A stretch of DNA of 32,519 nucleotides from Gammaproteobacteria bacterium (GTDB lineage: Bacteria; Pseudomonadota; Gammaproteobacteria; Acidiferrobacterales; UBA6901): the NCBI GenBank assembly GCA_016218345.1, contig JACREH010000014.1:1-32519 (forward strand). Reading direction: 5' to 3'. Positions within the stretch are counted from its first letter, which is position 1; each line of letters begins with the position of its first letter. Positions 14,253 to 27,304 of the stretch are shown here, piece by piece. Below the pieces are notes generated by a model that made no database searches, was not told the DNA's origin, and saw only the letters and a list, made by a program, of their open reading frames with translations. The position numbers and the translations under genes are program-made.

Positions 14253-15103
14253 ACCGGCGCTGGTGGCTGAATCTTGGCCTGCTGACCGCGATCGGCATTC
14301 TGGCGGCGATCGCGGTATTCAAGCCCGGTACCGAAAAACCTATCCCCAAGCCGGCGCTCACCGCGCTCCGCGCCGAGGCCGTCCAGAAGATTTCGATCGA
14401 GCGTCCCGGCCAGCCGCCGGTCGTCCTGGAAAAGGCCGGCGAGCAGTGGCGGCTGACCGCGCCGCTTGGCGCGCGCGCCAGCCGCTACCGGGTCGAGAAC
14501 CTGGCGCGCATCGCCGGCGCCGAGAGCGAGGCACGCCTGCCGCTCGACGAGGCGGCGCTCGGCCAATACGGCCTCGATAAACCGCTGGTGAGTGTGCGCC
14601 TCGACGACGAGCTCATCCAGTTCGGCGGCCTGCATCCGCTCAACCAACAGCAATACGTCCGCTACCGGGACGGCGTTCATTTGATCGGCGCGCACTACCT
14701 GCAAGCGGCGGCGGCCGGATTCACCGATTTCATCGACACCGCGCTCTTCGAGGACGGGCGCGAGCCGACGGCGTTCCGCCTGCCGGGCCTGACGCTCACG
14801 CGCGTGGACGGCCGCTGGAAACTCGCGCCGGAAAACAGGGACATCGGCAGCGACCGTGTCATGCAGTTCGTCAAGGAATGGCAGCACGCGCGCGCGCTGA
14901 GCGTGAGCCGCTATGACGGAAAACCCGCCAAGCAGCGCGTGACCATCGAATTCGCCACCGCTGAGCCGGACAAGCGTCATACGCTCGAAATCGGCATCGT
15001 CGCGCGTACCCCGCAACTGATCCTGGCGCGCAAGGACGAAGGCCTGCAATACCATTTCCCCGCGGACGCCGCCACGCGCATCTTGAACATCAGTGAAAAG
15101 TGA
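14249..15103 (+). CDS. DUF4340-like protein
   Basis: MNRRWWLNLGLLTAIGILAAIAVFKPG...VQKISIERPGQPPVVLEKAGEQWRLTAP...; ATG overlaps upstream stop; position after GldG-like gene. Confidence 0.82.
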   Translation: MNRRWWLNLGLLTAIGILAAIAVFKPGTEKPIPKPALTALRAEAVQKISIERPGQPPVVLEKAGEQWRLTAPLGARASRYRVENLARIAGAESEARLPLDEAALGQYGLDKPLVSVRLDDELIQFGGLHPLNQQQYVRYRDGVHLIGAHYLQAAAAGFTDFIDTALFEDGREPTAFRLPGLTLTRVDGRWKLAPENRDIGSDRVMQFVKEWQHARALSVSRYDGKPAKQRVTIEFATAEPDKRHTLEIGIVARTPQLILARKDEGLQYHFPADAATRILNISEK

Positions 15104-15187
15104 TGAGTGATGAGTGATGAGTTTAAAGTTGTACCGACGGTGTTGATAGCCGACCGCCTTTAACTCATCACTCATCACTCATCACTT
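15098..15187. repeat. Perfect 26-bp inverted repeat with arms of tandem GTGATGA units
   Basis: AAGTGATGAGTGATGAGTGATGAGTT (15098-15123) / 38-nt spacer / AACTCATCACTCATCACTCATCACTT (15162-15187). Confidence 0.95.
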
Positions 15188-15211
15188 ATAACTTATCGCT
15201 GCTTTTAAACA

Positions 15212-20672: not shown

Positions 20673-21242
20673 ATGAAAACCCGGCTGTTGATTATTCTGC
20701 TCGCGCTCTCGACCCTGTCCTTGCCGACACACGCCGTGGACGTGGGCGGCGTGCCGATCGCGCCGACCGCGGAGGTAAGCGCTAACGGACCGGCGCTGAC
20801 GCTGAACGGCTCCGGCGTACGCAAGAAGTTCTTCATGAGCGTCTATGTCGGCGCGCTCTACCTGCCCGCGAAGGCCGTGACTCCCCAGGAGGTGTTCGCC
20901 CAGCCCGGGCCGAAGCGCATGTTGCTGCACTTCGTGTACGACGAACTGAGCGCCCAAAAACTGGTGGACGCCTGGAACGAGGGGTTTGCGGCCAACACCA
21001 GCGACGCCGAACTTGCGGCGTTGCGCACGCGCATCGGTCAATTCAACGCGCTCTTCGTCACCACCCGGAAGGGCGATGTCATCGCGCTCGACTACCTGCC
21101 GGGCGAGGGCACGCGCGTGAGTCACAACGGCCAGGCCAAGGGCACGATCCCGGGCGAGGATTTCAACAAGGCGCTGCTCAAGATCTGGCTGGGTGACAAG
21201 CCCGTGACCGAGGAGCTTAAAAAGGCACTGCTCGGCGGCTGA
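20673..21242 (+). CDS. Periplasmic chalcone isomerase-like domain protein
   Basis: Signal peptide; VDVGGVPIAPTAEVSANGPALTLNGSGVRKKFFMSVYVGALYLP...MLLHFVYDELSAQKLVDAWNEGF. Confidence 0.85.
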   Translation: MKTRLLIILLALSTLSLPTHAVDVGGVPIAPTAEVSANGPALTLNGSGVRKKFFMSVYVGALYLPAKAVTPQEVFAQPGPKRMLLHFVYDELSAQKLVDAWNEGFAANTSDAELAALRTRIGQFNALFVTTRKGDVIALDYLPGEGTRVSHNGQAKGTIPGEDFNKALLKIWLGDKPVTEELKKALLGG

Positions 21243-21250
21243 TTTTTTCT

Positions 21251-21358
21251 CCTTCCCCCTTCAAGGGGGAAGGTTGGGATGGGGGTGAGATGCGTCAGCT
21301 TATGCCTGCCGTTCACGCTTCGACCCCCACCCTTGCCCTCCCCCTTCCAGGGGGAGGG
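21251..21358. repeat. Inverted repeat of CCCCCTT/AAGGGGG-type units
   Basis: CCTTCCCCCTTCAAGGGGGAAGGTTGGGATGGGGGT ... ACCCCCACCCTTGCCCTCCCCCTTCCAGGGGGAGGG; arms inverted and each internally palindromic. Confidence 0.85.
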
Positions 21359-21385
21359 AAATACTTTTTGCGACCGTCGCACAGA

Positions 21386-21413
21386 GCCTGCCCCCGCGAA
21401 GGCGGGGGTCGAA
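21386..21413. repeat. Short hairpin repeat (CCCCCGCGAAGGCGGGGG)
   Basis: GCCTGCCCCCGCGAAGGCGGGGGTCGAA. Confidence 0.75.
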
Positions 21414-21424
21414 CCTCAGTGAGT

Positions 21425-21443
21425 CCCCCGGCTGAGCCGGGGG
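21425..21443. repeat. Short perfect hairpin CCCCCGGCTGAGCCGGGGG
   Basis: 8-bp perfect stem with 3-nt loop, followed by TTTA. Confidence 0.75.
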
Positions 21444-21459
21444 TTTACCTTTGTGAATT

Positions 21460-21522
21460 AACCGCCAAGGACGCCAAGGCGGGAACCCAAGAAAATCGTC
21501 ATTCTTGGCGTTCTTGGCGGTT
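21460..21522. repeat. Intergenic inverted repeat with tandem-unit arms (CCGCCAAG family), copy 1
   Basis: AACCGCCAAGGACGCCAAGG (21460-21479) ... TTCTTGGCGTTCTTGGCGGTT (21502-21522). Confidence 0.9.
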
Positions 21523-21535
21523 CAAGATGGATTTA

Positions 21536-22711
21536 TCAGGCGATCGCGCGGCTGGCACTGCTCGCCGCCACGCCCTGCTTGACCGGCGCGCGCATGTCGG
21601 CGAGCACCGCCTCGAGCGCGCCCAGGCAGTACAGCACGTTCTTCAGGTTGGCGCCGTAACCCATCAGGCCGATGCGCCAGATCTTGCCGGCGAGCGCGCC
21701 GAGGCCGGCGCCGATTTCGAGGTTGTAGTCCTGCAATAGCCGTGCGCGCACTTCGGCCTCGTCCACACCCGCCGGCACGGTAACGGCGTTCAACTGCGGC
21801 AGGCGATGTTTTTCCGCTACGTAGAAGCCGAGGCCCATGGCCTCGATGCCGGCGCGCAACGCGAGGTGATACTTTTGGTGACGCGCCCAGGAATTTTCCA
21901 GGCCCTCCTCCTGCAACATCACCAGCGCCTCGTGCAGGCCGTATAACGGGTTGATCGGTGCGGTGTGATGATAGGCGCGTTTGCCGCTGCCCCAGTAACC
22001 CATCACCAGATTCAAATCCAGAAACCAGCTCTGCACCTTGGACTTGCGATTCCTTATCTTGTCGGCGGCACGCTCATTGATGCTCACCGGCGACAGCCCG
22101 GGCGTGCACGACAGGCACTTCTGCGATCCGGAATACACGGCGTCGATGCCCCATTCGTCGAGCTTGAGCGGCGTGCCGCCGAGCGAGGTCACGGCATCGA
22201 CGATCGTGAGACAACCGTGCTTGCTGGCCAGCGCGGCCAGTGTTTTGGCGTCGGACTGAACGCCGGTCGAGGTCTCGGCGTGCACGAACGCGACGATCTT
22301 GGCGTCGGCATGAGCCTTGAGCGCGCGCTCCAGTTTGTCGGGATCGATCGGCGTGCCCCAGGCGTCCTCGACCATCACCGCCACACCGCCGGTGCGCTCG
22401 ACGTTTTCCTTCATGCGACCGCCGAACACGCCGTTCTGGCAGACGATCACCTTGTCACCCGGTTCGACCAGGTTCACGAAACAAGTCTCCATGCCGGCCG
22501 AACCGGGCGCGGAAACGGCGATGGTGAGCGCGTTCGTGGTTTGAAAGGCGTACTGCAGCATCGCCTTGACCTCGTCCATCATCGCCACGAACGCCGGATC
22601 GAGATGACCGATGGTCGGACGGCTCATGGCCGCGAGCACGCGCGGATGCACGTCCGAAGGGCCTGGCCCCATGAGCGTGCGCAGCGGCGGAACAAACGAT
22701 TGGATCGTCAT
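21536..22711 (-). CDS. Class V aminotransferase, alanine/serine-glyoxylate aminotransferase-like
   Basis: [58 protein letters not shown]...[40 protein letters not shown] (PLP Lys region); start 22711 rather than 22981. Confidence 0.92.
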
Positions 22712-27229: not shown

Positions 27230-27290
27230 ACCGCCAAGACGGCAAGATGGAAATTTTCAATGCACAGCCTTTCTTGGCGGCCTTGGCGGT
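27230..27290. repeat. Intergenic inverted repeat with tandem-unit arms (CCGCCAAG family), copy 2
   Basis: ACCGCCAAGACGGCAAGA (27230-27247) ... TTTCTTGGCGGCCTTGGCGGT (27270-27290). Confidence 0.88.
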
Positions 27291-27304
27291 TCAGGACCAT
27301 CGTT

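Follow-up and report, generated by a model that had tools for sequence, protein, structure and literature searches.

Most palindromes stacked between two convergent genes of a gammaproteobacterium very probably belong to a non-autonomous IS200/IS605-derived element that has lost its right end

The locus described here raises a simple question: whether a dense run of palindromes, packed between two convergent bacterial genes, accumulated piece by piece or belongs to one element. The window (the whole stretch of DNA that was analysed, 32,519 nucleotides in length) comes from an environmental gammaproteobacterial assembly of 1.85 Mb in 122 contigs, which is 80.6% complete. Within it, a plus-strand chalcone isomerase-like gene (20673-21242; Chalcone_3, PF16036, 183.8 bits, with the domain complete at positions 1-165 of 165), whose stop codon ends at 21242, converges on a minus-strand class-V aminotransferase gene (21536-22696; PF00266, 91.3 bits), whose open reading frame ends at 21536 and whose start is not settled. 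Relatives of the aminotransferase are 71-80% identical, and the nearest named ones include groundwater gammaproteobacteria and Candidatus Muproteobacteria.

Between these genes lie the palindrome CCTTCCCCCTT/AAGGGGGAAGG (21251-21273) and its partner CCCTCCCCCTTCCAGGGGGAGGG (21336-21358), within a 37-nt inverted pair that is 78% complementary (21250-21286 / 21323-21359); the palindrome CCCCCGCGAAGGCGGGGG (21391-21408); the hairpin CCCCCGGCTGAGCCGGGGG (21425-21443); and the arms AACCGCCAAGGACGCCAAG and CTTGGCGTTCTTGGCGGTT (21460-21478 / 21504-21522), which are 95% complementary. All of the palindromes that a sequence-only reading had listed in 21251-21522 are thus present, and 21243-21535 folds far more strongly than shuffled sequence does (-157.8 kcal/mol versus -113.0, sd 5.3; z -8.4). 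Neither an Rfam family nor a tRNA was found in the window, and a literature search by repeat sequence matched nothing relevant. Elsewhere in the window, an inverted repeat of TGATGAG-type heptamers (ATCAGTGAAAAGTGATGAGTGATGAGT...ACTCATCACTCATCACTCATC) lies between two genes at 15083-15209.

A search of the same genome with the palindromic block returned eight further copies of most of it (contigs C39, C48, C104, C83, C56, C78, C54 and C18), such that 21243-21460 recurs as a single block in nine copies whose flanks are unrelated. Identity is 93-98% among the window copy and L002-L005, L006 is 84-88% identical to these, and L007-L009, at 67-83%, are more divergent. The complete copies (L002-L006) measure about 285 bp (289 bp for L003, flanking bases included), and, read in the orientation of the window, they run from a CCCCCGGCAAAGCCGGGGG hairpin near the left end through a GGCGCC hairpin, GCCGCCTGAAGGCGGC and a T-run to the CTCCTTCCCCC inverted repeat, GCGACCGTCGC, a second CCCCCGGC hairpin and finally TTTACCTTTGTG. 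The CCCCCGGCnnnGCCGGGGG hairpin that lies near both ends of these copies is confined, in a genome-wide pattern search, to the composite loci, where it is usually paired, save for three weak places with two mismatches; nearly all of the roughly 15 distinct CCCCCGGC hairpins in the genome likewise fall within composite copies (the genome-wide repeat counts rest on pattern and BLAST searches). Because 21243-21460 recurs as a block and its hairpins are confined to the copies, the window palindromes in that interval are parts of one element, and not families stacked independently at the junction. The proposal of a ‘nest’ of different families is mostly overturned by this ninefold recurrence, an outcome of the kind that the sequence-only reading had itself set as its refutation, although seen within one genome rather than across genomes. 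A degree of layering does survive, in that a shell, an inner inverted repeat, a 23-bp insert and an adjoining CCGCCAAG repeat can be told apart, although most of the palindromes belong to one element.

The composite element extends over 21234-21460 on the minus strand, an assignment that draws on the nine copies and on ends that match IS200-type elements with tnpA in three related genomes (G021, G004 and G005); in this orientation, its left end (LE) lies at the high coordinate. The LE of the IS200-derived shell (21407-21455, minus strand) is made up of the hairpin CCCCCGGCTGAGCCGGGGG at 21425-21443, which had been described as ‘perfect’ and is a left-end, transposase-type hairpin on the minus strand, and a tip at 21444-21455; it is adjoined by a putative target pentanucleotide, TAATT (21456-21460, minus strand). 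Inward of the LE, a 23-bp insert with most of the CCCCCGCGAAGGCGGGGG palindrome (21384-21406, its edges ambiguous by 1-2 bases), found only in the window copy and L007, breaks off an LE-side shell sequence, GCGACCGTCGCACA (21370-21383, minus strand), which is shared with other copies and resembles sequence upstream of tnpA in G021 and G004. The place of tnpA itself is occupied by the inner inverted-repeat element (CTCCTTCCCCC...GGGGGAGGG; 21250-21359), with its 37-nt arms. All that alignment of the copies identifies of the right end (RE) is a remnant at 21234-21249 (minus strand), consisting of the second arm of the GCCGCCTGAAGGCGGC hairpin and the T-run and overlapping the last codons and TGA stop of the chalcone isomerase-like gene; the homology of the window copy starts at GGCGGCTGATTTTTT, where that gene stops, and the outer 75 bp or so of the RE, the RE hairpin included, are absent. 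On the other side, a separate CCGCCAAG-type inverted repeat (21460-21525), of a kind that is dispersed in the genome and adjoins the LE in three of the nine copies, supplies the target through its GGTTAAT tip.

This anatomy also bears on a question of present function, which does not compete with any reading of origin: whether the block now acts as a bidirectional transcription terminator for both convergent genes. That role is possible but rather unlikely. The block folds strongly, and two terminator-like hairpins are called on the plus strand (21336-21358 and 21425-21443) where 0.8 would be expected, which is only a slight excess; however, the T-runs are interrupted, no terminator-like hairpin is called on the minus strand, and the hairpin and T-run of the complete copies (GCCGCCTGAAGGCGGC) is broken in the window copy.

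The origin of the shell can be traced through related genomes. Two members of the same family (G004 and G005) contain the element's left 88 bp and right 66 bp at 85-87% identity and about 480 bp apart, with a minus-strand transposase gene, frameshifted or decayed, between them; in a member of another family of the same order (G021), both ends match at 90% and the enclosed transposase gene is intact. The G004 protein scores 82 bits for Y1_Tnp and 92.7 bits on the IS200/IS605 equivalog model (cut-off 55), while the G021 protein matches the solved IS608-type TnpA (1.4e-16), with the motifs HVH and YIRNQ falling opposite HIH and YIEEQ in the best alignment. Comparison with these relatives shows that the ends of the element belong to an IS200-type insertion sequence, one whose tnpA is retained in the relatives. 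In IS orientation, the hairpin stands about 17 nt from the tip at the LE and about 10 nt at the RE, its 5' foot being TAAG or TAAA at the LE and TAAG in most REs (some REs deviate); another hairpin spans the likely ribosome-binding site of tnpA, and all three fold as DNA. Such hairpins, foot tetranucleotides and ribosome-site hairpins are described for the IS200/IS605 family (PMC6006769; PMC7290912).

Because the same ends flank an IS200/IS605-family transposase gene in three relatives, with one copy intact, 21234-21460 is very probably a copy, truncated on the right, of a palindrome-associated transposable element (PATE) that is non-autonomous and derives from IS200/IS605. Complete copies carry subterminal palindromes related to IS200/IS605 ends near both termini (the window copy keeps only its LE); at about 285 bp, they have no transposase gene, are too short to encode one and hold an inverted repeat as their interior; the parent element encodes a Y1 HUH TnpA; and TAAY precedes most LE tips, in line with the joining of PATEs to the 3' side of a defined tetra- or pentanucleotide. 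A Y1 (HUH) TnpA supplied in trans would recognise the CCCCCGGC hairpins on the minus strand, excise the element as single-stranded DNA and join it 3' of a TAAYT pentanucleotide, in this instance the tip of the CCGCCAAG repeat. We infer the boundaries of the element and its lack of a target duplication, as we do its present-day mobility. Two observations weigh against this reading: no matching tnpA was found in the assembled genome (80.6% complete), and the right end is missing from the window copy.

The putative landing rule can be followed from copy to copy. Of 14 left ends taken from several genomes, 12 have TAAY immediately ahead of the LE tip, and sequences resembling TAAYT lie beside both tips, as a target together with an RE tip would lead one to expect. 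In three of the nine copies (window, L002 and L008), the TAA comes from a CCGCCAAG repeat whose tip reads GGTTAAT or nearly so, and in three others (L003, L006 and L009; positions read from sequence) it is the stop codon of a gene that reads towards the left end. No more than four copies (window, L008, L009 and probably L002) have convergent genes on their two sides, and others lie between tandem genes, with genes around the copies called from ORF length and codon composition only. A TAAYT landing explains the location of the element beside gene ends and another repeat without recourse to a special tolerance site. What remains of the ‘preferred landing site’ put forward in the sequence-only reading is the preference of an IS end for a pentanucleotide; a convergent junction is not required, since several copies lie between tandem genes. 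The chalcone isomerase-like gene was not found near the aminotransferase gene in six genomes of the same family, nor in 80 named loci.

A second CCGCCAAG-type inverted repeat occurs in the window at 27230-27296, without an IS200-derived shell. Separate landings of the shell on CCGCCAAG tips would be favoured over joint dispersal of repeat and shell, because the CCGCCAAG repeats beside the window copy and L008 have one loop type that is also present away from the shell, and the repeat beside L002 differs.

A readable order of events can be proposed for the remaining parts. In each of the nine copies, the CTCCTTCCCCC... inverted repeat, about 110-135 bp long, stands in place of tnpA at an identical position, and the same composite exists in a genome of another family (G042); this shared position would be explained most simply if the CTCCTTCCCCC-type repeat replaced tnpA before the copies spread. 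An IS200-type element would thus have lost tnpA to the inverted repeat, and the composite would then have spread, after which a 23-bp piece with CCCCCGCGAAGGCGGGGG would have entered the window copy and L007, the only two of the nine copies in which the CCCCCGCGAAGGCGGGGG hairpin is found in this genome. Loss of this piece from the other copies, or recombination, may account for its distribution instead of a late gain, because L007 is otherwise a divergent copy. In a final step, the outer right end would have been lost from the window copy, which for that reason is probably immobile now. The right-end GGCGCC hairpin of both L005 and L009 is interrupted by a further insert (GGCAACTGCTCCCGGCGTTGCTCTACCTCC...), so that this piece, too, was copied with the shell. 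Relatives of the inner repeat found elsewhere stand alone or in other shells. Another repeat family of this genome (L011, L012, L013, L014, L016, L020, L021 and L022), with outer arms close to TAAGARCGCCTAACAAAATGA and TCATTTTGATAGGCGTTCTTA, surrounds the CCCTCCCCCTTCCAGGGGGAGGG core that the window element also has, so that one core occurs in different shells. A different repeat in G054 (L222-L224), beginning AGCAGGTTGCTGAAAAAG, contains the exact CAGAGCCTGCCCCCGCGAAGGCGGGGG 27-mer that the window has at the 23-bp insert.

Set against this history, the view that several unrelated palindromic repeat families inserted successively at a tolerant convergent junction is improbable. It has to its credit the presence of four different palindromes, two layers of which (the 23-bp insert and the CCGCCAAG repeat) do not belong to the shell; but nine loci carry the block as one piece, the terminal hairpin forms no independent family in this genome, and several copies lie away from convergent junctions.

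Dispersal of REP/BIME elements by a REP-associated (RAYT) transposase is more improbable still. The hairpins are GC-rich and lie between genes, and the sole Y1 transposase found in the assembled genome (222 aa; positions 1474-2142 of L202, on contig C92) is of a different type, outside the IS200 group of the shell. Against this, the hairpin occurs only within the composite, in about 15 distinct instances and not the more than 100 of REP elements, and the shell transposase of G004 reaches just 20.5 bits on the REP-associated model (cut-off 80) and passes that for IS200. The L202 transposase gene is flanked on either side by sequence resembling GGGGACATTCTACTTTTC, and about 1.9 kb upstream of it lies a partial repeat. 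A classical MITE of a DDE transposon was rejected, as the tips, read from the copies, are not mutual inverted copies (TCACAAAGGTAAA versus AGTTAAATGA), and the transposase of the parent is of the Y1 type.

On the preferred reading of a truncated PATE, what looked like a nest of unrelated palindromes becomes a single mobile element that can be traced to a known parent and whose history can be read step by step, and it offers a bacterial example of a biology described so far mainly in haloarchaea. A simple TAAYT rule, often satisfied by a stop codon or by the tip of another repeat, could explain the pile-up of palindromes at gene ends. A more speculative extension, offered tentatively, is that of a modular non-autonomous IS200 derivative that carries small repeats as fixed cargo, taking them along with the shell from family to family within one order, and that lands by TAAYT on TAA stops and CCGCCAAG tips, where it would provide gene ends with ready-made hairpin terminators.

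Among known systems, the nearest are the PATEs of Haloquadratum walsbyi, which have IS605-type ends, subterminal palindromes and no transposase gene, are often invaded by inverted repeats of about 110 bp (SMR-A) and also exist as terminal-only, core-deleted forms (PMC3119063). The present element is like these, and like the PATE-like element of Halanaerobium hydrogeniformans (PMC7290912), in its IS200/IS605-type ends, its subterminal palindromes, its lack of a transposase gene and the short inverted repeats within it. The core-deleted forms have a counterpart in two terminal-only forms of G044 (L039 and L225), in which one CCCCCGGC hairpin remains together with both tips, the product to be expected if the sequence between the end hairpins were deleted. 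Unlike those PATEs, the present element has a proteobacterial host, and its inner inverted repeat, in contrast to an occasional secondary insertion, is found in all copies and so was propagated together with the shell; bacterial cases of PATEs may be under-reported. With the IS200 group of IS200/IS605 (tnpA only), the element shares hairpins, a target-like flank and, in relatives, tnpA between the same ends, whereas the window element itself has neither tnpA nor a right end. REP sequences with RAYT transposases (PMC2817692; PMC6006769) offer a likeness in their short, GC-rich intergenic hairpins and related single-strand mechanism, but the hairpins of the window are neither solitary nor high-copy, and the transposase of their shell is of the IS200 type.
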